From the IMG/VR virus record IMGVR_UViG_3300009514_000016, positions 16,186 to 80,185 of that record: a stretch of DNA of 64,000 bases; one strand, written 5' to 3'. This DNA comes from a virus. Position 1 is the stretch's first letter. Each line of letters starts with the position of its first letter. Of the stretch, positions 3,380 through 60,623 are shown piece by piece. A program made the translations under genes and the position numbers. The notes below the pieces were generated by a model. The model did no database searches. It was not told where the DNA came from and saw only the letters and a list, made by a program, of their open reading frames with translations.

Positions 3380-4357
3380 ATGAATAACTGGTATCTCAAA
3401 TTCATCAAACTGGCGCAAGAAGAAAAGTCTCCAACATGGCAAGATGAATTCGCTGATATTAAAGATCGTTTCAGCGTCGCTCACGATATGATGGCAGAAA
3501 AAGGCCACCAAACCTTTCAAGACCCCATGGTCACTGATCTTACAAATATTGATTATATATCAGAACAATTCTTAAATCAACACACTAGCGAAATTTTAGA
3601 CAAAATAGAAACACTAAAAAGAAGTTACCAAAACCAAACAAATATCAATGATGAACCACAAGAAATGCCAGATGCTTGGATTGGACCCTATCACGAAGAA
3701 GAAATAACATATCCAGAAGCCAGAGGAAGATTAATGTTTAATTTGCCGCTAATGAATTACAACATAAGCATCAATATGGATATGTATATTGACGAACACC
3801 CATCAACATTTGCTTGGAATCCTAATAATTCATATTTTTCACTTGCAGCAGATTTCACTTCAGAACCAGTTTTATCTAAGAAAGCATTCGAAGGAGAACG
3901 CGGAGGAAGCTCAATAGTTCATATCCCATACACCTTAGCTAATGAAAAATATATAAAGCCATACCTGAAAAATCTAATAAATGGATCAGTTCATAGCTAC
4001 ATCAATCGAAATAGCAACGCACTTCAAGATATGCTCCAATCAAAAGCACCTGATCAACATATCGGAAACCTAAATAAAAACAACCAAATGCTAATGAATA
4101 TAGCATGGAAATTCAATGAAGCAAATACTAATAATTGCACTCCAGAAATTCTAGATGGACAATTAGATGGATTGCAACTGGCCGCAGAAATATGCGAACA
4201 CCCATATATCAGAAAAATCTACAATGACCACATCAATCCTGACGATAGGCGAGAATCTATCTATGTTAGCAGCCTGTGGTCTCTCCCATATTCTGTTTTT
4301 GTGCATTTAGTTCACTGGATGGAAGAATTTATCAATAAGAATTCTGGGCCATCCTAA
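3380..4357 (+). CDS. N-tagged hypothetical protein, paralogue of the 62.6-kb gene
   Basis: A 325-residue protein starting MNNWYLKFIKLAQEE, the clearest copy of the N-terminal tag. Residues 35-60 (MMAEKGHQTFQDPMVTDL) match the corresponding part of the protein at 62567 (ILAEKGHTEYESQDITDL). Both then continue into a globular domain ending with an aromatic/hydrophobic helix (VFVHLVHWMEEFI versus VLIHVINYMKDKI). The two are therefore paralogues of unknown function at opposite ends of the window. Its stop overlaps the convergent minus-strand gene by 4 nt. No catalytic motif visible. Confidence 0.78.
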   Translation: MNNWYLKFIKLAQEEKSPTWQDEFADIKDRFSVAHDMMAEKGHQTFQDPMVTDLTNIDYISEQFLNQHTSEILDKIETLKRSYQNQTNINDEPQEMPDAWIGPYHEEEITYPEARGRLMFNLPLMNYNISINMDMYIDEHPSTFAWNPNNSYFSLAADFTSEPVLSKKAFEGERGGSSIVHIPYTLANEKYIKPYLKNLINGSVHSYINRNSNALQDMLQSKAPDQHIGNLNKNNQMLMNIAWKFNEANTNNCTPEILDGQLDGLQLAAEICEHPYIRKIYNDHINPDDRRESIYVSSLWSLPYSVFVHLVHWMEEFINKNSGPS

Positions 4358-4902
4358 ATCTCTAATTGTTCATACCTGTCAACATCTTCAATAAAAGACT
4401 CAATTAACTCAACCTCAATTAGATTTGTACTACACATGTCTTCTGCGACGCTTGCGTCCATTGATGCTAGTTTTTCTTCTTTGCTTTTTGATTTATGTTT
4501 TACACAAGTTCCATATTTATCGTGAGGCAAAGTAGTGTTATTTGGTAAGAAACACACATTTTTGCAAAACCAAAAATATTCGACAATTGGCCAAGGTCGG
4601 TATTCTTCTTTTTGTTCTGATTTAGAAAGTATATATGTGAATCTCACAAAACTAATAAAACCAATCAAGCATATTATTGCGCCGCTAATGGAAATTATAG
4701 AATAATTTCCCGATGTTAACATGCAAGATATGATACCTATAGTAAAAAAGGTTAATACTACATAAAAACCCTCGAATTCCCCCTGAGGTGTTGTTTTATC
4801 AACAGAGTTTTTGATTCTATAATATATTATTATAGGAATTGTCACCGGAAGTAACATTATTCTCACCCAAAAACATAGAAAATCCAATATTATTCTCATC
4901 AT
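4354..4902 (-). CDS. Multi-pass membrane protein with C-terminal LEI tag
   Basis: A 182-residue protein with three hydrophobic segments (about residues 8-27, 47-63 and 70-92), so probably an inner-membrane protein. A charged, Cys-containing tail follows and ends in DRYEQLEI. That ending is one of fifteen C-termini here that fit aromatic-x-x-L-E-I. The ATG overlaps the upstream stop (ATGA), so it is translationally coupled. It is the last gene of the operon starting at 5680, and the LEI codons are followed by no downstream ribosome binding site use. Function unknown. Confidence 0.75.
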   Translation of the reverse strand: MMRIILDFLCFWVRIMLLPVTIPIIIYYRIKNSVDKTTPQGEFEGFYVVLTFFTIGIISCMLTSGNYSIISISGAIICLIGFISFVRFTYILSKSEQKEEYRPWPIVEYFWFCKNVCFLPNNTTLPHDKYGTCVKHKSKSKEEKLASMDASVAEDMCSTNLIEVELIESFIEDVDRYEQLEI

Positions 4903-5378
4903 ATCTCTAAATTCCCATAAGTTGTTGGTTTGAATTCTTTGATTTCTATTTCTTTGCTTTTAATGTCATTGTTTATTTGCTCATCAATTGTTGCATCTTG
5001 ACAAAAATTGAAATTGTTTTTCTCAAGAATTTTAAAAACATCGTCATATTTAGCTCTAATAATTACATTTTTATCAGTCAAAATAGCCAAATATTTGAAA
5101 CCCAAAACATTTGAGGAATAAATTTTATTTATAGTTGCTTTATATTTACAGTTTATAGCGCCATCATCATTGCTAATATACCTATCAAAAATATTGCTTA
5201 TTTCGCTGGCTTCAATTTTAGCAAGCTTCATGTTTTCATCGTAAAAATAATATCTTAAAATGTCAATATGAATAACGTCGGATGGACCCAATTCATGAGC
5301 ATAAAACGCTTCTGAAATAATCTGGACAGTCTTATGTGGAAGACTCCTATACGCACAGCGATACACTTGATTTGTCAT
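4899..5378 (-). CDS. Hypothetical protein with C-terminal LEI tag (159 aa)
   Basis: Unrecognised soluble protein. A GAGGAAC ribosome binding site precedes the ATG. The core alternates strands and helices, with no membrane segment or catalytic motif. It ends TTYGNLEI, the C-terminal tag. The tag codons (TTA GAG ATA TGA) overlap the start of the next gene. Second of three genes in a minus-strand operon. Confidence 0.72.
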   Translation of the reverse strand: MTNQVYRCAYRSLPHKTVQIISEAFYAHELGPSDVIHIDILRYYFYDENMKLAKIEASEISNIFDRYISNDDGAINCKYKATINKIYSSNVLGFKYLAILTDKNVIIRAKYDDVFKILEKNNFNFCQDATIDEQINNDIKSKEIEIKEFKPTTYGNLEI

Positions 5379-5395
5379 CTGTTCCTCATTATTCG

Positions 5396-5780: not shown

Positions 5781-6449
5781 CTATATTTCTAAAACTCCAT
5801 ACATGCCATTTGCAAGTTTTCTACTTATTATGGTCAAAAATCCTTTTTTATGATCTATAAAATTATCTTTATTATAATAAGGAATGCACAGGCGTCGCTC
5901 GCTATCGTCTAAGTCATTTTTTATGCTAAGTCTTTTACCAATGTCATAGCCAGACAGCGAATTCTGCAACTCAAGCCACATACGTTTACATTTAAAATAA
6001 AGACCTATATACTCTTTCATTAGTTTGGTCCCATTAAAATTAAATACATATATTAGATCCCCTCCCAAGATATTGTCATGTATATATGTTATTTTATTGT
6101 GTGGTTTGATCTCTTTTAGCGAATTTTTATTGTCCTCATGGCTTAGTGCTATATGGCATTTAGCTATTATTTTGCTTACATCGGTAGACGAATAAGTAAA
6201 GTTGCAATGTTGTTCTTTCATGCAGTATTCAGTAAAATAACTTTTTATCACATATGGAACAGCGTACGTCAGAATGTCCTTTTTTATCGCCTTATAGGGA
6301 ATTGCGTTTTCTAATTTTATTTGACCGCTCTGATCGAATTTGATGTCATCATATTGGTTTTCGTTGAAAAATTCTTGTATCATAGAATGAGTATTGCGTG
6401 GCAGTAATTCGTTAAATTTGCTAGTATATTGTTGCACAATGCCGCTCAT
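5781..6449 (-). CDS. Hypothetical protein with C-terminal LEI tag (222 aa)
   Basis: Unrecognised soluble protein with an AGGAGAT ribosome binding site before the ATG. It ends GMYGVLEI. This copy of the tag is informative because the next gene downstream begins about 100 nt away with its own promoter and ribosome binding site. The LEI codons (TTA GAA ATA TAG) therefore cannot be explained as a coupled Shine-Dalgarno. Monocistronic by layout. Confidence 0.72.
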   Translation of the reverse strand: MSGIVQQYTSKFNELLPRNTHSMIQEFFNENQYDDIKFDQSGQIKLENAIPYKAIKKDILTYAVPYVIKSYFTEYCMKEQHCNFTYSSTDVSKIIAKCHIALSHEDNKNSLKEIKPHNKITYIHDNILGGDLIYVFNFNGTKLMKEYIGLYFKCKRMWLELQNSLSGYDIGKRLSIKNDLDDSERRLCIPYYNKDNFIDHKKGFLTIISRKLANGMYGVLEI

Positions 6450-6470
6450 AGTATCTCCTATAAAAAAATA

Positions 6471-7981: not shown

Positions 7982-9145
7982 TTACTGTGATTCAGAAGTT
8001 AATTGCAAAGAATCTCTAAATTGTTTTAGTGCATCTTCTGCTGAATAGTCTTTAATTGGCAGTCCTAAATCTGGAAATAATTCGCATATTTCTTCCAAAT
8101 AAAAATCATTTCTTATATCATGGCCCCAAAATTTTATAGCATTCCATTCATGTTGGGCAAATTTTTTAAATCTCTTTTTGTCTAAAACAAAATTGCGCGC
8201 AACCCACCCATCTAGTTCATCGAATTCTTTTTTCCCAGAGAGGTATTCCCATCCATGCCAATAATCCCCCATAATTTCTATTATAATTTTCCTTTCTGGG
8301 TCGGCAAAATCAGTTGTGGCAAAATCCATAAAATTATACTGCCATACAATTTTAGGCGATTTTTCAGCATTTATATCTCCAATTTGAATGTGATATCCAC
8401 GATTCAGCATCCAATTGGCAAATTTTCTTTCAATTCCAGAGACTTTTTCAAAACCGCCTTCTCTATTTTTTTTGATCATTCTGGCTCTTTGAGCTTCGCA
8501 CTGCTCAGGGGAATTGATATATCCCCTAGTTTCTTTGAGTAATATTCTTCCAGCAGAAGTGGCTTCGCTTCTATAATCAAGAATTTTTTGAGCCATCATG
8601 GGATAATTAGGAAATTCATCTTTATATTCAGATGTCTTTATATTATGAATTTTTAGGTGCCCATAATCAGCGAGCCACAAAAATGGTTCATGACATATTC
8701 GGCAAATAACATAATCTTCATTTTCTACACCATCTTCCATTATTTCTGCATTTTTAGCTCTAGTTTTTTCTTTGCCTCTCTCGTTTTCAATTTCATTTCT
8801 ATGATCTTTATAGCATATTTCACACATTCCTAAAGACTTATGCGCATATTCTGTGCTTTTACATTGCACGCATTTCTTATGTTTTTTAGACCATTTTCCG
8901 TTTAAAGAATTCATACTGGGTTTTCCTGTTGTGATTTTTCGTAGATTCTCAGCCCCTTTGGAATAGAATTTTTTCATTTCCTCAGGCTTGTCCTTCATCC
9001 ATGATTCTCTTGTCGGCGCATTATGTTTTGCTTTATACTCTTTGGCGCTCATTCCATGAACTTGTCTAACATGACTCAAAATCGTTTTCTCTTGTTCGAA
9101 TCCACATTCTTCACATTTTAACATCTCATTATTCCTTTGTTTCAA
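7982..9145 (-). CDS. Zinc-finger Vsr/DUF559-like nuclease, partner of the methyltransferase
   Basis: A 387-residue protein with three metal-binding units: CEEC...H....H (residues 11-30, Ros/MucR-like), CVQC...CEIC (92-111), and CRIC...GHLKIHNIKTSEY (148-174). The last two match the modules of the downstream methyltransferase in sequence and order. Residues 239-355 resemble the Vsr/DUF559 branch of PD-(D/E)XK nucleases: NFMDFA, then KIIIEIMGDYWHG (Glu290, Asp294), then a late FW..D strand. It is the first gene of a two-gene operon behind a GTATAAT box at 9198. Likely role: sequence-specific cleavage of DNA lacking the partner's methylation, aimed at competitor or host DNA. The pairing is inference; the domains are visible. 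Confidence 0.78.
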   Translation of the reverse strand: MKQRNNEMLKCEECGFEQEKTILSHVRQVHGMSAKEYKAKHNAPTRESWMKDKPEEMKKFYSKGAENLRKITTGKPSMNSLNGKWSKKHKKCVQCKSTEYAHKSLGMCEICYKDHRNEIENERGKEKTRAKNAEIMEDGVENEDYVICRICHEPFLWLADYGHLKIHNIKTSEYKDEFPNYPMMAQKILDYRSEATSAGRILLKETRGYINSPEQCEAQRARMIKKNREGGFEKVSGIERKFANWMLNRGYHIQIGDINAEKSPKIVWQYNFMDFATTDFADPERKIIIEIMGDYWHGWEYLSGKKEFDELDGWVARNFVLDKKRFKKFAQHEWNAIKFWGHDIRNDFYLEEICELFPDLGLPIKDYSAEDALKQFRDSLQLTSESQ

Positions 9146-10376: not shown

Positions 10377-10904
10377 TTAGATTACTAGTTTGAAGACTAG
10401 GTAGGTGCCGAGTGACAGATCGCCATTCAGACCGGAGCTTGTTCCTGGAACTCCTGATGGATATGGACCTGGAACTTCAACAACTGTTGCTACAACTTGT
10501 GAGTTTGCAGAAGAGGTTGTTGTTAGTTTACCATCTGAACCGACGAATAGGTCAGCGCCTACAGTGTAGGAAACGCCGTCGTCATATTGGTCAGTGGCGA
10601 ACTTTCCGCCTGAGTGATAGACGGTCATCTTGCCAGAGGCAGATGTTTCGTCTACGAATGGGTCTGATACTCTGTTCACAAAGCTATCTGAACCACCGCT
10701 GATTCCAGCGCCTACTTTTGGAAGACCAGGAGCGGATGATTTAGTATCACCAGCGATTCCTAGTGTCTTTGTAGAAGCGCCTCCGGTTGCTAGAGCAGCT
10801 TCTCCAGAGGAGTTTAGCTGAACGAACATTCCTTCAACGATATCTGCTGCGCTGTTTACAGGGTAAAAATCAGCGACAACGTGATAAATTTCGACTAATG
10901 CCAT
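10377..10904 (-). CDS. Probable capsid decoration / head structural protein
   Basis: A 175-residue, Gly/Ser/Thr-rich, beta-type protein (MALVEIYHVVADFYPVNSAADIVEGMFVQLN..., with GADLFVGSDGKLTT later). Its place directly before the major capsid gene and its small size fit a head-decoration or head-stabilising protein. Its first residues (MAL...) and ribosome binding site (AAAAAGGAATATAAC) resemble those of the capsid gene, indicating matched high expression. No cysteines or enzyme motifs. The assignment rests on position and composition, not on a recognised domain. Confidence 0.55.
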   Translation of the reverse strand: MALVEIYHVVADFYPVNSAADIVEGMFVQLNSSGEAALATGGASTKTLGIAGDTKSSAPGLPKVGAGISGGSDSFVNRVSDPFVDETSASGKMTVYHSGGKFATDQYDDGVSYTVGADLFVGSDGKLTTTSSANSQVVATVVEVPGPYPSGVPGTSSGLNGDLSLGTYLVFKLVI

Positions 10905-10950
10905 TGTTATATTCCTTTTTGGACTTTTTTCAAATTATTTGTTTCGACTA

Positions 10951-13900
10951 CTACTTTTCGTCAGATTCAAACATTTTGTTCTTTTTGTTTAGGCTCATGA
11001 GATTCATGAGTTTCTGAGCTAGATCTTCTGTTTCAGACTCTTTCGAGGCTGTTCTAGTAATTAGAGGAATTTCTAGTCCAGGGTTTTCCTTGCTTGCTGT
11101 CTTGGTGAGTCTATTGGAAGCAGCTTTTCTAACGGTTGCCTCATATTTTTGAATTAGAGGAACGGCTTGCTCTGATAGATCTGCAACAAGTGTTTCGTAT
11201 TCGTCTGCTTCGACTAGTCCATCTCTTAGAAGTGAGGCTGCAGTTTTGCAGGCTTCTTTATATCTTGCTGTTGCAACCTTAGTCTCATTGACTTCTTTTT
11301 CGGCTTTAGCAGCTTTAGCAGAGAGTGATTTTACCTTGTCAGACTCTTTATTGTCTTTGCTGGAAGAAACCTTTACAACTGTACGTTTCTTGCAGGACTT
11401 GCAGGTAATAGCATTGTTTCCAGATGCTACTACTTTATCGTGTCCGCATTGCGGGCAGGATGCGAGAACGGTTCCTTTGATTCTGGTGTCTCCACCTTCA
11501 AGTTCTTCGTTCCCCAGGTTTCCGCTTCCAGCCGGAATATTCGGGCCGTCTTTCGGAACAGAAGTTTCGTTACCTATTCTTGCGCCATCCCCCTTAGAAG
11601 GAATTTCTGGGGCTTTCTTGGTAGCAGGCTCTTCTTTGCCTAAAGTTTTTCCAGTTGATGGAACATCAACTTCTGATTCGTTGATATGATCAACTTTATC
11701 GAGTTTCTTTTCTTTTGGAGTTGATTCCTTTATTTTTTCTGCTTTTGGCAGTTCTTGCTGAGCAAACTTTTCATTAATTGCTTTCTGAGTGCTATCAGCC
11801 AGGGTTGTTCCCTTGATGTCGTAATCTCCTCCGTCTAGTTCTTCGTTTCCTAGTTGTTGATTTTTGACAGGAACTTCTGGTTTTTCAACTCCGAAGTTTT
11901 CTTCTTTGCCCATGGTTGCTTTTCCGCCTTTGTCTGGAACATCTGGTCCCTTCTTATCGACGTGTTCTTCTTTGCCCATGGTTTTTCCGTCATGTGTTTT
12001 GCCTAGATCCTTGACTTCTTCAACAGCGATTGGCTCTTTGAGTTGTTTATTCTTTGGAGATTCGCTTTTGACTGGTTTTGGTTCTACGCTATCAACAACA
12101 TCTGCGTTTTTCTGCAGGTGTCCGCCTTTGAGTGCTAGAGTTTCCATGGCCTCATCTTCTTCGACCATGTCTTCATCAGCAAGTTCTTCTGTCATATCTT
12201 CAACAGCATCTTCTTCTTTCATATCCTCTAGTTCTTCCTCGGCATCTTCGTGGAATTCTTCGAGTGAGCTTTCTAGTTGGTCTTCGACTTCATCTAGAAC
12301 GTTCTTTAGGGCTTCGGCGTCTTCTTCATCAAGAGTGATTGTAACAGAGCCTTCGCCTTTATCTCCCTCTTCGAATTCATAGCCTTCGTTGGCGATGTCG
12401 AATTCAGATTCTGTTTCGGCTGGAACTTCTTTTTCTTCTGGTTCAGTGTTGAAATCATAGTCAAATGCTAGGACCATGTTTTCTGCTTCTAGTTCGTCTT
12501 GTTCTGCGTATTCAGCTTTGATTGCTTCGCATGTTGCGCAAGCAGCTTTTTTGCTTAGACCTTCGGCCATTCTTTCGGCAACGCATTGTTTCATTGGGTC
12601 GGCTTCAGCTAGTTTAGAAGCGACTTTCATGAATAGTCCAGCAGTTACTTGCTTGCTGGCTTTCTTTTCCCATTGTGAAAGCATTTTGCAAACTGATTCA
12701 GCGAGTGGCTTGCCTTCAAATGGACCTGATAGACATACGGCGTTTTCACCATATCTGCGGCTCATTTTTTCGAGGCAAGTTTCAACTGGGAATTTGCGAT
12801 CAGCCATGTATGAGGCAACTAGTTGTTTGTGTGATTTTTTTGTTGCGGCGGAAATTATTTTGCCTTTTGGACCTTTTGGATCTGTTTCATCTTTGAATAC
12901 AACTGGAACCCATGTTAGGTGGGCAATAAGTTTCTTAGAATCTTTTGGATGTGCAACAATGTCAACTTTGTAGTTTTGCGAGCATGCAGAGCATGATCCG
13001 ATGTTGTTATCCATTGCGACTTTAGATGAATTGCAGTTCGGGCAGAAAGATCCGAATGATGCTTTTCCAGCAGTTTTTGTTGCTTTATCTGGAGAAATAA
13101 CCATTGAAAGTCTGATTGGAAGAGCAATTTTCTTAGAAGCGGCTAGTCCAACTGGCTCTTCCAGTTTTAGTCCGCCTTCTTCTTCTTCGCCTTCGCCGCC
13201 TTTGCTATCCTCGATAGTTCCTGGCCATTTGTGGACATCAATATTGACAGAGATTTTGAATTCTGCTCCGCAGGAGTTACATTCTCCTTCTCCGTTCATG
13301 ATGTCAACGTCGTCAGAGGCGCATGCTGGGCATGTTGAGCCTGGTGGTTGAGCTTCGCCTTCAGATTCTGTTTCTGCGGCAAGATCTTCTTCCATTTTTG
13401 GCTCTGCTTCTGGTGGAGTGGCAAGTGTTTCAGCACCAAGTCCGCCCATATCGGTTGGACCAGCAGCCAGATCGCCTCCGGCTGGAGCGGCAGTCATCTG
13501 ATCTGGAGTTCCGCCTCCAATTTGAGCAATTAGCTTGCGTCTTTTTTCCGCTCTTGCTTTCAAGAAATCTTCTTTTGATTCAGCTTTCTCTTTTGCGGCA
13601 GTTTTCTTTGTGGCCTTAGAGAATGCGACATGAACTTCTTTTGCTTTTTTGTCGACTTCTACGCCGGTTGCCTCAACAACTTCGAATCCGTTCTCAGCAG
13701 CAATTTCAACTGCTCTTGCGATAACAGATTCTTTATCATCGATTTTGGCATCGCCTAGATCATCGAATTTAATGTGAACATTTGCTGTCTCGTCGCTTGC
13801 GACTTTTGTTTCTTCTTCAGCGGAAGCTTCGGTTGTTTCTTCTTCCTCGGTTGAGTCTTCAGTTTCTTCAACTTCTTCTTCTTTTTCGGCTTCTTTTGTT

Positions 13901-16236: not shown

Positions 16237-16239
16237 TTA

Positions 16240-16254
16240 GATTGGACCCCAATC
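16240..16254. repeat. Hairpin directly before the protease-scaffold start
   Basis: GATTGG-GGT-CCAATC on the minus strand ends 3 nt before the ATG at 16236. No Shine-Dalgarno is visible there, so a 6-bp stem in the ribosome-binding region could tune initiation. Confidence 0.35.
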
Positions 16255-16269
16255 GTTAAATTAGTAACC

Positions 16270-38713: not shown

Positions 38714-38717
38714 CTTA

Positions 38718-46386: not shown

Positions 46387-46409
46387 ACCAAAGATTGAAA
46401 GGAATGACA

Positions 46410-49286: not shown

Positions 49287-49859
49287 ATGTTGAATCCATT
49301 TTTACTATCTGTTGGGTCTATATTCATAGACAAATACAGTAGATATCAAAAAGTTTTAAGCATCGATAGCCATAATGGTTTTATAGAATTTCAACTCATA
49401 AACGGCACTGGTCCAAAACATAATCATCTGAATTCTGATAAGGGATGGTGGAACTCATGCACTCTAGTGGATGACACTAGCTCTTTAGGAGTAGACCCTT
49501 GGCTATTGAGCCAGGGCGATTTAGTCCACAATGTTCTAACCGGAAAAAAACAAACAGTTCAGACCACTAGTTCAAGTGGCATCATTTTTAAAGAAGACAT
49601 GCACACTCTGGTTGATTTAAATGATCCAGTTTGGCATTACTGCAAACTCGATCTTGACCTAGATTACATGGATTGGGATGATATCATTATTGATCTTAGT
49701 GATATCACAACTATAGAAGAAGAATTAGAAGAATCTCTAAAAACTCCTGAACAAAAGAGCAAAGAGGCTGAAATAGACTTTTTCTTTTTCCCTGAAAAAT
49801 GGGCCGAAAGAGTTAAGAGAAACCAAGAAAAGTACGGCAAGAATAACGATACTTTTTAA
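49287..49859 (+). CDS. Hypothetical protein (190 aa)
   Basis: Unrecognised. The N-terminal 110 residues are strand-rich (SIFIDKYSRYQKVLSIDSHNGFIEFQLINGTG; GDLVHNVLTGKKQTVQTTSSSGIIF) and may form two SH3-like barrels. The rest is acidic. It is the last gene of the 46.4-49.9-kb plus-strand run, and its end overlaps the convergent CCA-enzyme gene by 4 nt. Confidence 0.65.
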   Translation: MLNPFLLSVGSIFIDKYSRYQKVLSIDSHNGFIEFQLINGTGPKHNHLNSDKGWWNSCTLVDDTSSLGVDPWLLSQGDLVHNVLTGKKQTVQTTSSSGIIFKEDMHTLVDLNDPVWHYCKLDLDLDYMDWDDIIIDLSDITTIEEELEESLKTPEQKSKEAEIDFFFFPEKWAERVKRNQEKYGKNNDTF

Positions 49860-51094
49860 AGAGCTGTTTTCAAATAGCCTCGCGCGAAATCCATAATTGC
49901 AAATTCATCATCTGCAATAGATGGGTTATCTAAAATGTGATCTTTAACCAATTGATTCACAGTTCCCAGTATTCTAGGATCTTCCGAAATCGCGGGGAAT
50001 TCATCCATTAGCTGTTTATTGTTTATCTTCGGCTTTTGCAATAAAGAGATAAATTCTTCTGGACTATGAGGCAAATACTCATTGCGATCTAAAATATCTC
50101 TGAATTTAGTTCTCTGATCTGGCCGCAAGAATCCTAGGGCACTAACATTCATTATCGATGATTCAAATAGCTCATAAAGCAAGTCTATGTTTTTATTGTT
50201 TTGCATTTGTCTTTTCAGATAAGTTGCAAATGGTTGATTCTGCGCAATCATTTCTTCAATAACGGAAACTAACCCCAGTCTCTTCATGTCTTGGAACATA
50301 ATATGAGCATTTGGTTCATCCAAAATATTTTCAACCAGTATCGTTCCAATGGCTTCCCATGGAGCATTCTTCATTTTATCAGCATTTCTCATTATAGATT
50401 GTTCAACTTCTGGAGACAGAGTAAATCCATATTTGCCCATGAATTTTATTGCTCTTAAAATTCTTGTTGGGTCGTCTGAAAATGTCACATCTGGATCAGA
50501 CGGAGTTCTCATATTCTTATTATAAAGATCTTTAAGTCCAGTTCCAAGGATATCAATTGTATCGGAAGCATCTGGACCATCATCTAGGTCAGCCATTCTC
50601 CATAACAGAGTGTTGAAAGTGAATTCTCTTCTCAACAAGTCTTCTTGAATTGTTGCTGGTTGAACATCTGTCGGCTTGTATCCCTTGCCTTCGTCATCTT
50701 TTGTTTTGCCATATGACTCTTTGCGGGCGTTGGCTATTTCAATTATTTCTCCATTGAAGTTTTGTCCATCAATAATCCAATCATCTTTGATTGTTACGAT
50801 TGCGACTCCATACTGATTAGTTGCCAAATTGGTTTCAACTGGAATTTCGCTCATAATATTGTGAGCAAGCCAAGCAGAATCTTTCCCTTCTCCCATGGCG
50901 ACGCTGTCAATGACAATATCAATATCTTTTATGGGCTTTCCCAATAGGAAGTTTCGAACTGCCCCTCCAACAACATAAGTATCATTCCCAGCGCCTAATT
51001 TTTTAGTAACTTCTGAAATGAATTTCATCAGAATAATAGATTTCTTGTGTTCATCGACTATGTTTTGCGCGAATTTATGATACCAATTATTCAT
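49856..51094 (-). CDS. cca: CCA-adding enzyme / poly(A) polymerase head-domain protein with N-terminal tag
   Basis: A 412-residue class II nucleotidyltransferase: YVVGGAVRNFLLGKPIKDIDIVI (GG at 43-44, DxD 57-59), the RREFTFNTLLW motif, and DDPTRILRAIKFMGKYGF as in bacterial CCA-adding enzymes. It repairs tRNA 3' ends (CCA), or less likely adds poly(A). I start it at 51094, which gives MNNWYHKFAQNIVDEH: the enzyme carries the same leader as the hypothetical tagged proteins. If that leader targets capsids, the enzyme would travel in the virion and restore tRNAs early in infection (inference). TAATG overlap with the upstream gene. Confidence 0.85.
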   Translation of the reverse strand: MNNWYHKFAQNIVDEHKKSIILMKFISEVTKKLGAGNDTYVVGGAVRNFLLGKPIKDIDIVIDSVAMGEGKDSAWLAHNIMSEIPVETNLATNQYGVAIVTIKDDWIIDGQNFNGEIIEIANARKESYGKTKDDEGKGYKPTDVQPATIQEDLLRREFTFNTLLWRMADLDDGPDASDTIDILGTGLKDLYNKNMRTPSDPDVTFSDDPTRILRAIKFMGKYGFTLSPEVEQSIMRNADKMKNAPWEAIGTILVENILDEPNAHIMFQDMKRLGLVSVIEEMIAQNQPFATYLKRQMQNNKNIDLLYELFESSIMNVSALGFLRPDQRTKFRDILDRNEYLPHSPEEFISLLQKPKINNKQLMDEFPAISEDPRILGTVNQLVKDHILDNPSIADDEFAIMDFARGYLKTAL

Positions 51095-51561
51095 TATCTC
51101 TTTCTCTGATCCCTCATAAAATCTTCTATAAGTTGTTTGACTTGTTTCCTCCACTCATCATAACTTGTTTTTGAGGCGACTAAAGATTCTTCATAAGTTG
51201 TTTGATCTAGAACCTCAGAAAATTTCATTTCCCCATTATTGCCGCATGCGATATCAAATTTATTAAGCAATCTTTTTCTGGAATTATAAGACAGCAAGTC
51301 AGACAGAGATGTAATTATGGCAATAAATGCATCTGGTTTTTCACAAATATTTATTTGCTCAATGTCGGTTTGAGATTCAATGAACTTTTTATTCCAGTTA
51401 TAGGCGATATAATCCATGTTCTCTGACAATCCTTGTGGTGGACCAATGGGCGCTTTAGGCTCTTTTATAAAACCCACATCGCGTCTAGGTTGAATGGTTC
51501 CCAAATCCGGCTCTGGGGATTCAATGCGTTTTTTCTTTTTGATCTTTTTCTTTTTGGCCAT
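51094..51561 (-). CDS. Basic-N-terminus hypothetical protein (155 aa)
   Basis: Unrecognised. It starts MAKKKKIKKKKRIES, a strongly basic tail. The rest is helical (LSDLLSYNSRKRLLNKFDIAC). Its TAA stop overlaps the ATG of the CCA enzyme (TAATG), so the two are co-translated. No catalytic motif. Confidence 0.65.
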   Translation of the reverse strand: MAKKKKIKKKKRIESPEPDLGTIQPRRDVGFIKEPKAPIGPPQGLSENMDYIAYNWNKKFIESQTDIEQINICEKPDAFIAIITSLSDLLSYNSRKRLLNKFDIACGNNGEMKFSEVLDQTTYEESLVASKTSYDEWRKQVKQLIEDFMRDQRKR

Positions 51562-51649: not shown

Positions 51650-52066
51650 TTATTTCGATATTTTGATCTGTTTCAAAACAGGTTTCTCTTCTTCTTTTTT
51701 ATTCACTCTCAACTTCAACACTCCATTTTTGCAAGTTGCAACCAAAGTATCAATATCTGCATCTGATGGAAAATTATACTTGTAATAGTGCGATCTTGAT
51801 TCTAAGGTTTCTTCTGAGCTTTTTGCACTTACTTCAACATGAGATTCACCGCATTTTATCTCAATGTCTTCATCAGAAACTCCTGGCACATCTAGGTTCA
51901 TATAGTAATAATGCCCTGGACACTCTCCTAAGTCTTGAATCTCTTTCCAATAGTGAGATTTCAAAATACTCTTGTCTTCCAACATGTGTTTTGCGCCAGA
52001 ATAAGCCCCATGCCAAATCTTATCAAAATCACTCCAAAGTTTATGCCACATACTCGAATGAAACAT
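51650..52066 (-). CDS. Small heat-shock protein (Hsp20 / alpha-crystallin)
   Basis: A 138-residue protein with the alpha-crystallin domain: GHYYYMNLDVPGVSDEDIEIKCGESHVEVSAKS...YYKYNFPSDADIDTLVATCKNGVLKLRVNKK. The A-x-x-x-N-G-V-L signature appears as ATCKNGVLKLRV. Small heat-shock proteins hold unfolding proteins. Similar genes are known in cyanophages and other large phages. Strong AAGGAGAAT ribosome binding site and its own terminator, so it is a monocistronic, well-expressed unit. Confidence 0.9.
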   Translation of the reverse strand: MFHSSMWHKLWSDFDKIWHGAYSGAKHMLEDKSILKSHYWKEIQDLGECPGHYYYMNLDVPGVSDEDIEIKCGESHVEVSAKSSEETLESRSHYYKYNFPSDADIDTLVATCKNGVLKLRVNKKEEEKPVLKQIKISK

Positions 52067-52154: not shown

Positions 52155-52955
52155 TCAGATTTCTAGTTTTGCGAAATCTTGTTCACAATTCCCTATGGAT
52201 TTCATGATTTTTTTAATATATCTGTTGTAGGCGTTCAGGTATTTTTTCATTAAATACGTTTCGCATATTTCCAGATAGCGATCATTTTTGATGTCATATA
52301 TTTTTTTAGACTTACCTTTTTGCATAATTTTAAATCTGTTAATGAATAGTTCTGGCCTGTCCAAGAACGGAATTATATTAGCAAACTCATCTTTCCCATA
52401 AGGGAAACCGCTTATATTCCGCTTCATCCACACGCCGCTATGTTTATTGAAACACTCGAAAGTATGAATAGAGTATCCGGTGCCTTCTCCGTAAGAAATA
52501 GTCCTGTTATTAGAGCATACTCTGAATTTTTGAGCATCAAAAGATATTTTGTTAAATTTCTTGCCAAACTCTTTTCCAAAATTCCTTTCGATAAACATGT
52601 AAAACTCTTTGGGAATGCTTAAAAAGAATTTATCGGTTCTGTTGATCTTTTCTGGTTTGACTTTAGCGCGGTACTCACATTCATATGCAACGTAATATTC
52701 TTCTTTGTCGATATAATCGCTGCAAAGAGAAATAGAGTCAATATCTTTTCTGAAATTTGCTCCTTCATAGAGTTCCGTGAATGTTTCTCTACTTCCGTCT
52801 CTGCCCATGCTGTCATTCAACAAATACGTCATCAAGTCATGAATATCATATGAAACTACAAACACATATTCAATTCCAGACTCGTCTTTGAAACCAATCT
52901 TGATTGAATTGCTTGTGTAGTGTCGGCCATCGAAAAATGTCCATTCTTTTTTCAT
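52155..52955 (-). CDS. Hypothetical protein with LEI tail (266 aa)
   Basis: Unrecognised. I start at the ATG at 52955 (MKKEWTFFDGRHYTSNS), 1 nt after the upstream stop. Mixed alpha/beta, aromatic-rich, without catalytic motif. It ends QDFAKLEI (CTA GAA ATC TGA). The next gene is 89 nt away with its own ribosome binding site, so the tag codons have no translational job here. Its upstream partner (52957) also ends in a tag variant. Confidence 0.7.
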   Translation of the reverse strand: MKKEWTFFDGRHYTSNSIKIGFKDESGIEYVFVVSYDIHDLMTYLLNDSMGRDGSRETFTELYEGANFRKDIDSISLCSDYIDKEEYYVAYECEYRAKVKPEKINRTDKFFLSIPKEFYMFIERNFGKEFGKKFNKISFDAQKFRVCSNNRTISYGEGTGYSIHTFECFNKHSGVWMKRNISGFPYGKDEFANIIPFLDRPELFINRFKIMQKGKSKKIYDIKNDRYLEICETYLMKKYLNAYNRYIKKIMKSIGNCEQDFAKLEI

Positions 52956-52956
52956 A

Positions 52957-53691
52957 TTACAATTCCAAGAGAGAGTATTCTTTTTCTGTTGGGGCAGCAA
53001 CCCGATTTATGGCGTTGTATTTACACATAATAATTGCGTTCATAGGCGAATTCTTCTCATAAACCCATGCATGTTGGATTTTATCTGATTTAGGCGACAC
53101 AATAGCTGCGCCACTATCCCTTTTAATGCAAATCTCAAATAGCTCTTCAAAAACTTGATCATTCCAATAACTCAGAAACATATGCGCTGAAGGCTCTCTT
53201 CGCACAGGGTAAAACCTATAAATAACATTTTTGTTGTCAACTACATAGTATGAATCGTCTGTCGGACACTGATAAATTTTGTCGTAGAATATTTTCCTGT
53301 CTTCATTAAAGTGCTTGCCAATCGACTCTCCGCATATATTGGATAAATCATCGTAAGTTGCTTTTGCTATCTTACTGGACAATTTCCCTTTTGGCCCTTC
53401 ACCACTAACGCTATATTTCTTCCCATCCTTAGTGATTGCGATGCTTTTAGGGTTGATCTCGCTGAATATTGATTGCTTTGTAGCCGTTTTAATTTTCTTA
53501 CCTTTAATCTGAGATTCGTCACGTTCAACATCGCCATAAATTGCTTTGATGAACAAATTTATAGATAAAGCTGATTGCATAAAATAATACTGACTTAGAA
53601 CCCCCATTTCCTCATCGCATTGATCACCAACAACGAAAAGCGGTCCAGCATGCAAATAGCTTCCATCAAATTCAAAATATTTATCCGACAT
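52957..53691 (-). CDS. Hypothetical protein with LEL tail (244 aa)
   Basis: Unrecognised. It starts 11 nt inside the end of the methyltransferase gene. Residues 1-70 look like a compact domain (YFEFDGSYLHAGPLFVVGDQCDEEMGVLSQYYFMQSALSINLFIKAI), followed by a strand-rich region. It ends KEYSLLEL, the C-terminal tag with final Leu instead of Ile. Position after a methyltransferase might suggest a partner role, but no nuclease motif is visible. Confidence 0.68.
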   Translation of the reverse strand: MSDKYFEFDGSYLHAGPLFVVGDQCDEEMGVLSQYYFMQSALSINLFIKAIYGDVERDESQIKGKKIKTATKQSIFSEINPKSIAITKDGKKYSVSGEGPKGKLSSKIAKATYDDLSNICGESIGKHFNEDRKIFYDKIYQCPTDDSYYVVDNKNVIYRFYPVRREPSAHMFLSYWNDQVFEELFEICIKRDSGAAIVSPKSDKIQHAWVYEKNSPMNAIIMCKYNAINRVAAPTEKEYSLLEL

Positions 53692-54530: not shown

Positions 54531-54929
54531 TTATATTTCTAGTTCTGAGAACCTTTTCATTGGGTCATACAATTTCGATATAACTTCTTTTTTATGGGCA
54601 TCTAAATTAGGATATTCAACACCGTGAATAAAATATCTGTGCTTTCCTGATGGCGTTATAATGGCGGGGCCATCCTCTCTGTGATATTGCTCATTAAAAT
54701 AGTAAGCAATGAAACCATCGGCGCATACAACGGCAGGCCCATCTTCTCTATGAAGTTGTCCCCATTTATTTTTCCATTCTTTTCTGAATTCTCCATTGGA
54801 AAACAAAATATACTTGCCAACCATTTTGCGAGCATAAGTTTCATTAGAATTAATAACTAATGGCTGTGCTTCATCAATATATATGGTTTCAGGGTATTTG
54901 CTAGAGTTGTTATACGACGTTATCTTCAT
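54531..54929 (-). CDS. HREDGPA-repeat protein with LEI tail (132 aa)
   Basis: Two repeats of the form (W..)xxG-x-LHREDGPAVV...AYYFNEQYHREDGPAII..GKHRYFIHG. Such MORN-like HREDGPA units recur in uncharacterised phage and giant-virus proteins and likely form a beta-sheet ladder. It ends KRFSELEI, the C-terminal tag. The next gene's start is 38 nt away behind its own promoter, so the tag codons are not a ribosome binding site. One of at least six repeat-family genes between 54.5 kb and the window end. Confidence 0.8.
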   Translation of the reverse strand: MKITSYNNSSKYPETIYIDEAQPLVINSNETYARKMVGKYILFSNGEFRKEWKNKWGQLHREDGPAVVCADGFIAYYFNEQYHREDGPAIITPSGKHRYFIHGVEYPNLDAHKKEVISKLYDPMKRFSELEI

Positions 54930-56014: not shown

Positions 56015-56710
56015 CTATATTTCCAATCCAGAATAAGTTTCGTCAACTTCTTCTTCTCTTTCGCATTTTTTCTTGGCCTTTTTCTTTGATTTTTTCTTTC
56101 CACCTTTAAAAAGATCAGGTCTGTTTTCTTTGCGATAGGGAGTAAGTTCTTTCAAAACATCAAAATACTTTGGATCAGTTAAGAATGTTATTTCCTCTAA
56201 TATCCCTAATGCTGCATCTTTCTTTTTTTGTTCCTCATATAGCGCGTAGACATTATCCGCTATAACAGATGAAATTACAGAGCATGGATTGCGATAAGAT
56301 AGATGGATTACACTTGTCTCTGGCGGGCAGAATTGCCATCTATCTTTTGCAGGATCAGTAAGAGCATTTTCTATGTCCTTCTCAATATTTTCTTCTCCGA
56401 CCCCCTTGTAGAGATCCCATCTTAACGTAAAAGCCAATCCGCATTTCGCCCAAAAAACATTTGATCCAACATGTAAAACACCGTTTGAGCTTTGATTGCA
56501 CACAGACATATTCATTGAGGAAAAACACCAAGGACATCCATCTCGAAATATCTTTGATACATTATGGATGTACTTGTAATTTTTACATTTGTCACATATC
56601 TTGTCTTTGACTAGGTATGCCGAAAAATCAAAATATTTTCCTGGATCTCCTTTACATAACTCGCAATCATATGGAACTCTCAACGGCTCGGGCATTAATG
56701 CGGTTTTCAT
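56015..56710 (-). CDS. Cys-rich zinc-binding protein with basic tail and LEI tag (231 aa)
   Basis: I start at ATG 56710 (MKTALMPEPLRVP), preceded by GGAGAATTGAG. Residues 15-70 carry several Cys pairs (CELC, CDKC, CPWC), a multi-zinc module. Near the end, GGKKKSKKKAKKKC is strongly basic, followed by an acidic stretch and ETYSGLEI, the C-terminal tag. Possibly nucleic-acid binding. Coupled to SufU upstream and abutting the oxygenase downstream. Confidence 0.68.
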   Translation of the reverse strand: MKTALMPEPLRVPYDCELCKGDPGKYFDFSAYLVKDKICDKCKNYKYIHNVSKIFRDGCPWCFSSMNMSVCNQSSNGVLHVGSNVFWAKCGLAFTLRWDLYKGVGEENIEKDIENALTDPAKDRWQFCPPETSVIHLSYRNPCSVISSVIADNVYALYEEQKKKDAALGILEEITFLTDPKYFDVLKELTPYRKENRPDLFKGGKKKSKKKAKKKCEREEEVDETYSGLEI

Positions 56711-56711
56711 C

Positions 56712-57128
56712 TCAATTCTCCAAATCACTCAAAATCTTGTTAACCAAATGCCAACACATAGTAACGCATTTGACTCTCATTGGGTATTCTCTTACTCCTG
56801 AGAAAACCATGAGTTTTTCATCTTCAATATCTCCATCATTAGTCAACATCCCATGGAATTTTTCAAATATATTTTTAATATCACTAACGCTCATGCCTTT
56901 AAGCTTCTCTGTCATGATGGACGCCGACGCCGTGGACAGGGCACATCCGCTGCCTGTGAAGTTAACTTGCGAGACTGTGTCGTTTTCTAATGATAACCAT
57001 AATTGAATTTTATCACCACATAAGCGATTATGTTCAGATCCACAGTGTGTATACTTTGATGGTTCACTGAAATTACGCGGATTATTATTGTGATCAATAA
57101 TCACTTCACGGTATAAATCGTCAATCAT
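56712..57128 (-). CDS. sufU: SufU/IscU-type Fe-S scaffold or sulfur-transfer protein
   Basis: A 138-residue SufU-like protein: LYREVIIDHNNNPRNF at the N-terminus, CGDKIQLWLSL (Cys37, Asp39), GSGCALSTASASIMTEKLKG (Cys62) and REYPMRVKCVTMCWHLV (Cys121). These are the three zinc/sulfur-binding Cys plus Asp of SufU. SufU takes sulfur from SufS for Fe-S cluster assembly. I find no sufS, sufB or sufD here, so it would work with the host machinery. The homologue-supported start at 57128 has a TATAAT box 5 nt upstream, which is good evidence for a leaderless mRNA. Confidence 0.88.
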   Translation of the reverse strand: MIDDLYREVIIDHNNNPRNFSEPSKYTHCGSEHNRLCGDKIQLWLSLENDTVSQVNFTGSGCALSTASASIMTEKLKGMSVSDIKNIFEKFHGMLTNDGDIEDEKLMVFSGVREYPMRVKCVTMCWHLVNKILSDLEN

Positions 57129-57711: not shown

Positions 57712-58263
57712 TTATATTTCCAGCATTGAGTACGGATCATCTTTAGTCATAACCTTTAAAACTAGATCATGCTTTTCTTTATCTGATTTATATTTTTCGA
57801 TGATAGGTTCTTTATTTTTATATTCTTCTGATTTTGAATTAGTGTTGAAACTATTTAAATATTGAGTATACTTCGCAATATGTCCTTGCCATTCAGCGAC
57901 GTAACTATCATACTTTGATGCTTTTATTTTGATTCCTAAAATATAGTATTCTTTGCTCCCTCCAGATGAAAACCATGCAGGCCCATCTTCTCTGTGAATA
58001 TACCCTGACGCAGTTCTATAGGTAGTTGTGTCTAAAGTTGTCGTTACATGCGTTGTTTGCGGAGTGGACGGTATGACGATTAGGCCAGTGCCACACTTCA
58101 TAGATTTAAAGTTTTTCATTTCATAGATAATAAAGATAATAAACAAAAATACTGTTGCAAGATATGCGATGCTTACTGTAACAGCGTCAAAAAATATGAG
58201 GCCCAAAGGAAAAGTGAAAAACAATATGTTAGGAATTTTATCTCTTATCTTTTGCGCTATCAT
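57712..58263 (-). CDS. Membrane-anchored HREDGPA-repeat protein with LEI tail (183 aa)
   Basis: I start at ATG 58263 (MIAQKIRDKIPN), with AGGAG 8 nt upstream; longer frames have no ribosome binding site and cross the promoter. Two hydrophobic segments (about residues 12-27 and 30-48) are followed by one repeat unit ASGYIHREDGPAWF and a charged helical tail ending DDPYSMLEI. The tag codons (CTG GAA ATA TAA) are 87 nt from the next start. Probably a membrane protein that displays the repeat in the cytoplasm or outside. Confidence 0.72.
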   Translation of the reverse strand: MIAQKIRDKIPNILFFTFPLGLIFFDAVTVSIAYLATVFLFIIFIIYEMKNFKSMKCGTGLIVIPSTPQTTHVTTTLDTTTYRTASGYIHREDGPAWFSSGGSKEYYILGIKIKASKYDSYVAEWQGHIAKYTQYLNSFNTNSKSEEYKNKEPIIEKYKSDKEKHDLVLKVMTKDDPYSMLEI

Positions 58264-58290
58264 GTTAGATCTCCTAAAAGTATGCATTCC

Positions 58291-58296
58291 ATTATA
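58291..58296 (-). promoter_or_regulatory. -10 box of the membrane HREDGPA gene
   Basis: CATGTATAATGG on the minus strand, 27 nt before the ATG at 58263, followed by an AGGAG ribosome binding site. Confidence 0.55.
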
Positions 58297-58360
58297 CATG
58301 ATCATTGTGTTTGTTCCTAATTCCGCCCAAAAATAAAGCAAATCAAATAAACAGGAAATT

Positions 58361-58366: not shown

Positions 58367-58386
58367 CCAAAAAGAAATAATCCCTT

Positions 58387-58989
58387 ATGAACAATTGGTA
58401 TAATAAATTCCACAAAATATCTCAACAAAACTGGATGCAAAATATCCAAGAACAATCCAGCGTAGATGGGAATATAGGGCAAGAAGAAGAATTATCTGAA
58501 ATTCACTCAAAAAGCTACAAAATGAAAAAGAATGCTGCCGCTTTTGAGATAGCCGGAGCCGTGTTCCTTATAACAAATATCTTGATCGCTCTCAAGTATA
58601 GTGTGACTGACTCAATTGATCCAGAAACTCTAAATCGAATTGATGATCAGGCCGAAAAAGAAAAGATAGCAAGAAATAAAATTCAAATATTTGACAAATT
58701 ATCTAAACAATTATTCAATCTCGTGCATAGTCTAAATATGCTCATTGATGATGATAGTAATGTTAGAGAACAGATAATGGAATATGCCAAAATAGCTAAA
58801 AGCACTAGCATAGATTATGAGAATTTAGTTTTAGATGGAAAGTCCCTGCCAACTGAAACCCACCGAAAAGAAGATAGTTTGAAAAATGTTATGCCAAATA
58901 TGTTAGACAGACTAAAAAATAAACTGGAAGAATTCCATGCAAAAGGCGATGAAGTTGCAGGGAAAGCGTTGTCGCAAATTCCACAGTAA
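58387..58989 (+). CDS. N-tagged membrane protein (200 aa)
   Basis: It starts MNNWYNKFHKISQQNW, the N-terminal tag. One hydrophobic segment (FEIAGAVFLITNILIALKY, about 51-69) is followed by a charged helical region of coiled-coil type. It is a lone plus-strand gene inside a minus-strand region and is convergent with 58991. A membrane segment in a tagged protein is a point against a simple capsid-interior destination for all tagged proteins. Function unknown. Confidence 0.72.
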   Translation: MNNWYNKFHKISQQNWMQNIQEQSSVDGNIGQEEELSEIHSKSYKMKKNAAAFEIAGAVFLITNILIALKYSVTDSIDPETLNRIDDQAEKEKIARNKIQIFDKLSKQLFNLVHSLNMLIDDDSNVREQIMEYAKIAKSTSIDYENLVLDGKSLPTETHRKEDSLKNVMPNMLDRLKNKLEEFHAKGDEVAGKALSQIPQ

Positions 58990-58990
58990 T

Positions 58991-59683
58991 TTATATCTCT
59001 AATCCTGAATATGGATTATCATATAATTGTTTGTCCAAGATATCTGCTTCTACTAAATTCTTTTTGCTCACAATCAATTTATCACTGTAATTATTATCAA
59101 CAATATCTTGCACCCTGATATTGTCGTCAACATATTTGTTCTTAGGAATATACCATTGACGCTTTTTCATGAATTCTTTGGCATAATGCATATCAAGCCA
59201 TCTGTTTGTAAAGAAATCAACCAAATCTGAATACTGAAAAACACAAAGTGTGCGCTCTATTTTATAGAGAAAACCATCTGTCGGAATTCCAAGGTGAGTC
59301 AACTTTGCCTTGTGATCGTATTCCATTTTATCTTTGTGCAATTGCCACAAAAATCCACCAATGTTATAAAAAATACTTTCATCACTTCCATTGTCCCTGT
59401 GACCTTCTGGAATTTTATCTAATTTTTCATTTATCTCTTTAACCGTTGGTATCAAATTGGAACTTAGGTCGCATTCGGTGTTGGATGATCCGTCTTCAAC
59501 AGTCAAAACTTTGCCTAATAGATTTTTATTATTATTGTGAGTGAAGCTAATTTCAATTCTAAATTGAGATGAACACGCTGTAGTTATCTTAGTTTGACAT
59601 GCTGGTGATAGATTTTTCATAAATTCATCAAGAGTGTATCTTTTCCAATTTGGGTCGTAGCCCCAATAATATAAATTGCCCAT
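58991..59683 (-). CDS. Hypothetical protein with LEI tail (230 aa)
   Basis: Unrecognised alpha/beta protein with aromatic-rich start (MGNLYYWGYDPNWKRYTLDEFM). EGHRDNGSDESIFYNIGGFLWQLHKD may be a worn HR..DG unit. It ends DNPYSGLEI; its stop is followed by a convergent gene, so the tag codons (TTA GAG ATA TAA) cannot be a ribosome binding site. Start overlaps the upstream stop (TAATG). Confidence 0.7.
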   Translation of the reverse strand: MGNLYYWGYDPNWKRYTLDEFMKNLSPACQTKITTACSSQFRIEISFTHNNNKNLLGKVLTVEDGSSNTECDLSSNLIPTVKEINEKLDKIPEGHRDNGSDESIFYNIGGFLWQLHKDKMEYDHKAKLTHLGIPTDGFLYKIERTLCVFQYSDLVDFFTNRWLDMHYAKEFMKKRQWYIPKNKYVDDNIRVQDIVDNNYSDKLIVSKKNLVEADILDKQLYDNPYSGLEI

Positions 59684-60144
59684 TATATCTCCAATCCTGA
59701 GTAAGGATCTCTCTTTGTGACAATGAATTTTTTGTCTTCGATATAACTGCCATAAATAATAGTCTCAAAGTCTTGTTTGCTAAAACATTTTCCACCAATA
59801 TAGTAATGATTTTCTTCGCCCACCATAACCGCAGGGCCATCCAATCTGTGGATCTTGCCGCAAACAAAAAAGAGTCTACTATCTGCTGCCCAAAACGATA
59901 CATTAGATTCTAAAATATGAGGAAACTCAGAAATAACTGGAATCTCCTGAGCTACCAACAATGCTGGACCTCCAACCCTGTGCCGAACCCCATTGAGCCA
60001 CCACTCCTCAGAGCCATTGTCCCACACAACTGCTGGCCCACCTTCTCTGTGAATCCTTCCGTTATCATCATAATAAGTTTTATACTGAGGAGATTTCATG
60101 AACTGAGAAAAGAAATCATAGCCCAAGTTATCAAAATTAAACAA
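59683..60144 (-). CDS. HREDGPA-repeat protein with LEI tail, TTG start (153 aa)
   Basis: Three repeat units: GRIHREGGPAVVWDNGSEEWWLNG, VRHRVGGPALLV, and GKIHRLDGPAVMVGEENHYYIGG. It ends KRDPYSGLEI. The TTG start at 60144 has GGAG 8 nt upstream, within the tag codons of the previous gene. The tag codons of this gene in turn form GGAGATATAATG with the start of the next. Function unknown; one of the tandem repeat-family genes. Confidence 0.75.
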   Translation of the reverse strand: MFNFDNLGYDFFSQFMKSPQYKTYYDDNGRIHREGGPAVVWDNGSEEWWLNGVRHRVGGPALLVAQEIPVISEFPHILESNVSFWAADSRLFFVCGKIHRLDGPAVMVGEENHYYIGGKCFSKQDFETIIYGSYIEDKKFIVTKRDPYSGLEI

Positions 60145-60146
60145 CT

Positions 60147-60623
60147 CTAAATCTCCAATAACTCATATGGGTTTCTAGGATGAGCAAGCTGAATCTCTCC
60201 AGCAATTTTTTGAACAATGCCGTGTTTGGCCTTATAGGATTCTGCGGATTTTTTATATCTTCCCATATCTACAGTGTCTATTATTTCATTGCGCGATCCA
60301 AAATAAGCACCGTCAACATAATAATAAGCAGATCGGACAATTGGCTTTCCTTGATCTTGACGGTCAACTCTCTGAATCGCAGGGCCATCGACATTGTGAT
60401 ACAACCCATTTTTGTAGTATTTGTAAAAATAGAAGAACTCATTCTTTATTTCCACATAAGCAGGGCCATTATCTCTGTGAAGTTTTCCATTTTTATGCCA
60501 AGTTCTTATTGATGTATTTTGACCTGAAAATTGCAATGAAGATGGCTCATCATTAAAGCTGTGCAATTTCCCATCGTCATTATAGGTTCTAATACCGCCA
60601 TTTTTAAACGTTTTCTTTTTCAT
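60147..60623 (-). CDS. HREDGPA-repeat protein with LEI tail (158 aa)
   Basis: Three divergent units (GKLHSFNDEPSSLQF; WHKNGKLHRDNGPAYVEI; YKNGLYHNVDGPAIQRV) followed by a strand/helix (YYYVDGAYFGSRNEIIDTV). It ends RNPYELLEI. Ribosome binding site GAGATATG. It is preceded by a TATAAT promoter and a 5'-UTR stem-loop at 60650. First gene of a three-gene run of similarly tagged proteins. Confidence 0.75.
   Translation of the reverse strand: MKKKTFKNGGIRTYNDDGKLHSFNDEPSSLQFSGQNTSIRTWHKNGKLHRDNGPAYVEIKNEFFYFYKYYKNGLYHNVDGPAIQRVDRQDQGKPIVRSAYYYVDGAYFGSRNEIIDTVDMGRYKKSAESYKAKHGIVQKIAGEIQLAHPRNPYELLEI

Follow-up and report, generated by a model that had tools for sequence, protein, structure and literature searches.

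Tagged proteins of the phage genome

The 64,000-base stretch of viral DNA analysed here (the window) covers positions 16,186–80,185 of the 80,185-base virus record IMGVR_UViG_3300009514_000016. This record encodes terminase, portal and GroEL genes; its capsid protein shares 83% identity with counterparts on other huge-phage contigs, and Bacillus phage G is among its portal relatives. We describe a short peptide, referred to below as the tag, that recurs at the C-terminus of many small proteins of this phage in forms such as YSGLEI. All open reading frames (ORFs) of the full record were examined; mechanical calling of the longest non-overlapping ORFs gave 92 ORFs of at least 60 amino acids (aa). 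The tagged or possibly tagged ORFs of the window, and one that overlaps its edge, are as follows.

4354–4902, minus strand: 182-aa ORF ending DRYEQLEI (tag codons 4357–4374), convergent with a plus-strand gene ending at 4357
4899–5378, minus strand: 159-aa ORF ending TTYGNLEI
5781–6449, minus strand: 222-aa ORF ending GMYGVLEI, 101 bases from the start of the next same-strand ORF
35592–36335, minus strand: 247-aa ORF ending PKDMLLEI, marginal (position −6 not aromatic)
43913–44248, minus strand: 111-aa ORF with a CPGC zinc-like motif, ending DRFTNIEI
44250–44609, minus strand: 119-aa ORF with RYLVLEI six residues from its end (RYLVLEISKIKRQ)
44588–45028, minus strand: 146-aa ORF, SH3/KOW-like by eye, ending DRWVGLEI
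46395–47729, plus strand: 444-aa ORF ending KKYQDLEI (tag codons 47709–47726)
52155–53000, minus strand: 281-aa ORF ending QDFAKLEI
52957–53691, minus strand: 244-aa ORF ending KEYSLLEL
54531–54929, minus strand: 132-aa HREDGPA-type repeat ORF ending KRFSELEI
56015–56728, minus strand: 237-aa ORF with Cys pairs, ending ETYSGLEI
57712–58341, minus strand: 209-aa membrane and repeat ORF ending DPYSMLEI
58991–59683, minus strand: 230-aa ORF ending NPYSGLEI, convergent with a plus-strand gene ending at 58989
59683–60144, minus strand: 153-aa repeat ORF ending DPYSGLEI
60147–60623, minus strand: 158-aa repeat ORF ending NPYELLEI
Full record (L002) 16009–16296, minus strand: ORF ending DPYGALEI, whose 5' part is window 1–111

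The ending [YFW]-x-x-[LIVM]-E-[IL] closes 21 of the 92 ORFs, 14 in the window (YEQLEI, YGNLEI, YGVLEI, FTNIEI, WVGLEI, YQDLEI, FAKLEI, YSLLEL, FSELEI, YSMLEI, YELLEI and, three times, YSGLEI) and seven in the outer 16 kb (YSGLEI, YKWLEI, YENLEI, YRMVEI, YDFIEI, YDFLEI and YGALEI), against a composition-based expectation of 0.023 (Poisson log10 P = −54). It closes none of the 619 other (non-gene) ORFs of the full record, and inside the proteins of the record the motif occurs twice against 6.4 expected. The DNA pattern TAY-N6-YTN-GAR-ATH-TRR gave 14 matches, compared with none in the reversed control, and an exact-codon scan of viral contigs for YSGLEI returned four matches, all of them chance. 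Among the 21 strict endings, position −6 is Tyr (17), Phe (3) or Trp (1), position −3 is Leu (18), Ile (2) or Val (1), position −2 is always Glu and position −1 is Ile (20) or Leu (1); Arg (6) and Pro (5) recur at position −7.

The original prediction, made from the window, listed about 15 genes with this ending and named enrichment over the whole genome as its check. All 15 end as listed, 14 of them in the strict form, and the enrichment holds over the full record; the product ending at 35592 (DMLLEI) is only a marginal member, as it lacks the aromatic residue. The RYLVLEI string of the 119-aa ORF is possibly a near-terminal copy of the tag or a chance occurrence within a hydrophobic stretch. 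Most of the tagged bodies have no match to any Pfam or PHROG family. That these bodies are unrelated, as had been claimed, is true of most but not of one pair outside the window (full record 14428–14781 and 14778–15485), nor of four ORFs that share HREDGPA-like repeats (54531, 57712, 59683 and 60147). Two further repeat proteins are untagged, which shows that tag and body are separable. No relatives of the 444-aa ORF were found in viral contigs, and a single-sequence fold model of the SH3/KOW-like ORF (44588–45028) was uninformative.

A sister form of the tag in other huge phages

Every genome used for comparison is a metagenomic record, many of them fragments, and the relatives scanned may not include those closest to the phage of the window. 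In about 100 records of near relatives by portal or capsid protein, the YxxLEI DNA pattern was at the control level, and the tag was therefore first taken as unique to this phage. This view was overturned by an unbiased search of further genomes for over-represented end patterns. A 547,943-base record (the 548-kb phage), whose capsid protein is 71% identical, has a strong C-terminal signal (SRFEILDL, NRFEIMDL, FRYELLDI and similar), which takes the form R-[FY]-[ED]-[IL]-[LM]-D-[LI] in the relatives. The two forms have a common layout, with an aromatic residue at −6, an aliphatic one at −3, an acid at −2 and Ile or Leu at −1, and the sister form has Arg at −7. The sister-form DNA pattern has 46 matches in the 548-kb phage against none in the control, and 57 of its 812 ORFs, encoding small proteins, are tagged at the end or at most 16 residues from it. 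Pattern scans also detected the sister form in records of 350,866, 297,710, 64,827 and 33,533 bases, so that the tag spans six phage records in all. Thus, the originally predicted motif is real but is one local variant of a more widespread tag. Carriers of the tag phages had no match in cultured phages.

Three proteins near the polymerase gene of the 548-kb and 351-kb phages (L331, L332, L355) share a different ending, ELEDDLGGVDRY; the polymerase gene beside them is apparently split, with an extra 345-aa ORF adjoining.

Codon usage in the tag

Tag codons might act at the DNA level by providing the next gene with a ribosome site or coupling element, or they might mark a recombination seam between gene cassettes. 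In this record, the tag codons match genome usage for Tyr (p = 0.96), Leu (p = 0.68) and Glu (p = 0.46), the final Ile favours ATA (13 vs 5.9 expected, p = 0.001) and all three types of stop codon follow the tag. Three tagged genes of the record meet a convergent neighbour. As originally reported, no start codon follows closely at 4354 and 58991, each of which faces a convergent gene, or at 5781, 52155, 54531 and 57712, where the next same-strand ORF is 101, 89, 38 and 87 bases away, respectively. The tag of the 58991 gene is thus not a ribosome site for the next gene, as its neighbour is convergent. More generally, a Shine-Dalgarno origin fails in this window because the codons follow genome usage except for ATA and because neighbours are convergent or starts distant, which supports the earlier view that selection acts on the peptide.

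Tag DNA of the 548-kb phage and its sisters shows an excess of GAG, TTR and a final A, and an ATG lies near the stop of most tags; the codons for Phe, and most of those chosen for Arg, do not depart from background. This excess, together with the closeness to the next ATG, means that sister-form tag DNA doubles as a coupling element, and coupling-type bias is absent in this window apart from ATA. The Shine-Dalgarno idea is therefore a real secondary layer in the sister-form relatives and fails for this window. The Arg and aromatic positions, however, have no role in a ribosome or coupling site, and homologues keep the peptide despite codon change. A DNA-level artefact is already largely refuted and can hardly account for the tag.

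Conservation and position of the tag

Across 32 homologous pairs between tag phages, median identity is 39% in the body and 86% in the last seven residues. These pairs had been selected for having the tag; hence, a second test was made on homologues that had not. The tag was found at or near the end in 19 of 22 such homologues in tag phages and in none of 25 in other phages, 24 of the latter being one zinc-ribbon domain of a giant head protein. A gain of the tag by the head protein was considered and withdrawn, as the match is a shared zinc ribbon only. Since the tagged bodies of this record have no homologue among the relatives compared, these conservation tests cover just the sister form; in its carriers the tag is mostly retained in orthologues, against the loss that the original prediction had named as a refutation.

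In an SH3-like family of nine proteins, I..RF[ED]ILD[LI] is fixed while the body and the linker, including its length, vary. The family model has a pLDDT (predicted local distance difference test score) of ∼ 80–94 in the body except for a weak loop, and of ∼ 61 in the tail, so in this one modelled carrier family the tag is predicted to lie outside the fold. A fold search with the model gave no significant match. One copy of the family (L320:1861–2152) stops early and RFEILDI* follows in another frame, which could reflect a frameshift, a sequencing error or decay.

The 548-kb phage has 43 exactly terminal copies, one internal copy and 15 copies (of 58 near-terminal motif matches) with 1–16 residues after the motif; the sister phages have 59 terminal and two near-terminal copies. 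A similar string, possibly a further copy, lies near the N-terminus of four proteins. As about one-quarter of the 548-kb phage copies have extra residues after the motif, a free carboxylate is probably not needed, and its recognition is unlikely. The same observations bear on a possible role as a degron, for instance of the ssrA type, in which a host or phage AAA+ protease would read the tail and keep early proteins short-lived. The carriers are small accessory proteins with a hydrophobic C-terminal tail, and an AAA+ ATPase gene lies in the replication cluster of the 548-kb relative, both of which agree with a degron; however, the extended copies and the four possible N-terminal ones oppose recognition of a free C-terminus, and invariant acid and aromatic positions are unusual in simple degrons. 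We regard this role as very unlikely.

Genomic placement and candidate functions

The tag is unevenly distributed along the record. In the block 9,411–43,376, from the capsid protein to the terminase/GroEL region, none of 28 ORFs has the strict tag, compared with 21 of 64 elsewhere (p 0.0002). This bears on the possibility that the tag is a virion cargo signal that loads proteins into the prohead, to be carried in the particle and injected, like the N-terminal capsid-targeting sequences of T4 or the C-terminal peptides of encapsulins (HK97-fold shells). Cargo signals are typified by a constant terminal peptide on variable bodies (PMC5694885, PMC8346489). Two tiny carriers of 72–74 aa (L336:18421–18639, minus strand, and L387:1486–1710, plus strand) fuse ∼ 37 residues of the capsid-protein N-terminus (EALxTDEGRxALAxAMVEPIR) to the C-terminal tag; in addition, the giant head protein contains a domain matched by a tagged zinc ribbon. 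Against this, the head block holds no carrier, relatives with an 83–84% identical capsid protein have no tag, and another recurrent peptide of the same phages, the N-terminal MNNWYxKF/MNWYKKAQ, would fit a capsid role better. A cargo function is thus unlikely, if less so than the degron. In the window the N-terminal peptide, MNNWYxKFxKIAQ or MNWYRISQ, is found on about eight other proteins and is possibly a capsid-targeting signal:

1710–2654, plus strand: N-terminal-peptide protein
2647–3378, plus strand: N-terminal-peptide protein
3380–4357, plus strand: N-terminal-peptide protein
37928–38743, minus strand: N-terminal-peptide protein
49856–51154, minus strand: N-terminal-peptide protein, resembling tRNA nucleotidyltransferase by eye
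58387–58989, plus strand: N-terminal-peptide protein
62567–63415, plus strand: N-terminal-peptide protein
63412–63714, plus strand: N-terminal-peptide protein

Proteins of the relatives start with MNWYKKAQ, MKIYKLA-like sequences or MYRYKKA. In an unrelated large phage (L293–L299, a 159,837-base record, and L008) many proteins start with MKYKEILxEA, a T4-like targeting peptide at the N-terminus.

Carriers of the 548-kb phage are concentrated at 136–153 kb, and several of those that have orthologues are found among genes for DnaE-like polymerase, primase, DnaB, UvrD and an AAA+ ATPase; an AAA+ ATPase gene of this phage lies at 417–419 kb. This mixing of conserved carriers with replication genes, as well as the aromatic-x-x-L-x-[IL] spacing, which resembles clamp motifs, is consistent with an epitope for the sliding clamp or replisome, which would be a special form of docking exemplified by the C-terminal epitopes of T4 gp43, gp55 and gp33 on the clamp gp45. 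The bacterial consensus QL(S/D)LF (PMC9690074) contains a Gln that is, however, found in no carrier; the DnaE-like polymerase, primase and helicase are untagged; and no clamp was recognisable by sequence, a 437-aa protein near the clamp loader matching none. Other acidic or aromatic tails are present on the core replication proteins: the DnaE-like polymerase ends in IESVDMFEDLF, the DnaB-like helicase in DIDDVF, and DDEFDFD and IGWDDI also occur. We consider a clamp epitope improbable, more so than virion cargo.

In the capsid-protein tree, this phage and the 548-kb and 65-kb phages fall into different supported groups, and the tag is missing from large fragments, including one of 476 kb, that belong to close relatives of this phage. 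The tag has thus been lost, transferred or re-evolved among phages, which makes the capsid protein, or any other fixed reader, unlikely. Phage GroEL was rejected as the reader because it is absent from three tag phages. A contig labelled as an Armatimonadetes metagenome-assembled genome (L228; JAFDWS010000002.1, 1,363,254 bases) bears a relative of the capsid protein; neither an S7 nor a 16S gene was found in that genome.

Relation to known terminal peptides

The clamp-binding tails of T4 gp43, gp55 and gp33 are interchangeable and also function internally (PMC2988020). Like the tag, which follows a variable linker and is a hydrophobic-acidic peptide located at the C-terminus or close to it, they are short C-terminal peptides of this kind on unrelated phage proteins; unlike the tag, they belong to three core replication and transcription proteins and differ in sequence. 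The tag, by comparison, is carried by 21–57 small accessory proteins per phage and was not seen on a DNA polymerase (the DnaE-like polymerase lacks it) or a late sigma factor. The bacterial beta-clamp motif QL(S/D)LF and the SSB C-terminal tips are likewise hydrophobic or acidic C-terminal docking peptides, but the former has Gln first, whereas the tag has Tyr, Phe or Trp at −6 in 21 of 21 strict cases and sits on accessory carriers.

Targeting (cargo-loading) peptides of Family 1 encapsulins, with the consensus SDGSLGIGSLKRS (PMC8346489), are also short, usually C-terminal and attached to unrelated cargos, with hydrophobic positions and an acid or Ser before Leu. Encapsulins differ in having few cargos per system and a Gly pattern; the tag has no Gly pattern or LGIGSL-type core, its own cores being YxxLEI and FEILDL, and its carriers avoid the phage head genes. 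Only the phage capsid protein was noticed as a possible shell gene nearby, in the course of work that included no systematic search for encapsulins. The capsid-targeting sequences of T4 (PMC5694885) share with the tag a constant terminal peptide on varying bodies but are N-terminal and cleaved, and the recurrent N-terminal peptides of the tag phages are a closer match to them than is the tag. With an untagged polymerase, no Gln, no LGIGSL core and a position that is not N-terminal, the tag was placed in neither the T4-epitope nor the encapsulin class. By analogy, it fits a docking peptide on a flexible tail and may function much as the T4 clamp-binding tails or the encapsulin peptides do. The Type VII secretion motif YxxxD/E, which fits YxxLE but not RFEILD, was dropped.

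Other features of the record

Additional features noted in the record include:

Window 138–1304: Cas12f1-like TNB-domain protein
Window 41063–42688: phage GroEL
Window 51650–52066: HSP20
Full record 8130–8786: probable peptide deformylase (by eye)
Full record 10456–10993: five tRNAs
Full record 7–741, at the record end: tandem repeats, the minus strand seemingly encoding a collagen-like Gly-x-y fibre protein (by eye)

A putative docking peptide

The tag occurs far beyond chance and its conservation exceeds that of its carrier proteins, so that it very probably works in docking. On balance, we favour a transferable docking peptide that recruits accessory proteins to a single hub inside the cell. 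The tag would be a short linear motif of ∼ 7–11 residues on a loose C-terminal tail, with an aromatic residue at −6, an aliphatic one at −3, an acid at −2, Ile or Leu at −1 and often Arg or Pro at −7, and would join otherwise unrelated small proteins (metal-binding ribbons, SH3-like, short-repeat and membrane proteins) to a common partner in the infected cell; the body would provide the specific activity and the tag the place. We infer a single reader that is located inside the cell and is not the capsid, given that the head genes are spared and that these phages have a second recurrent peptide, at the N-terminus. The hub may sit at the phage replication or expression centre, as conserved carriers lie among the genes for DNA polymerase, primase, helicase and AAA+ ATPase.

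Several observations weigh against this docking role. The core replication proteins are themselves untagged, the tagged bodies of this record lack homologues in the relatives, and the two forms of the tag, found in different capsid-protein clades, could be independent in origin. In the sister-form relatives, coupling to the next start codon explains part of the codon choice. The analysis identified no reader protein: a search by gene sharing turned up nothing beyond weak matches that this record has in common with tag phages alone. Thus, of the address or docking signal that had been proposed, the common docking or address role is supported, and its putative single receptor may be a host or a viral protein. 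The accompanying claim that no phage signal of this form had been described agrees with our literature search, which found no paper containing the tag strings or describing the tag.

A broader, more tentative possibility is that this huge-phage lineage has a general C-terminal address code, in which dozens of unrelated, exchangeable small proteins per genome would be directed to a single phage-made or phage-captured hub, with YxxLEI and RFEILDL as dialects. How the hundreds of small proteins without known role in large phages are sorted or recruited is an open question, and a 2020 review noted that whether phage proteins bear sorting signals awaits characterisation (PMC7950403). The tag would mark ∼ 20–60 small proteins per genome as one functional set, whose new members may be recognised from sequence alone, and it offers an eight-residue bait for finding the reader.

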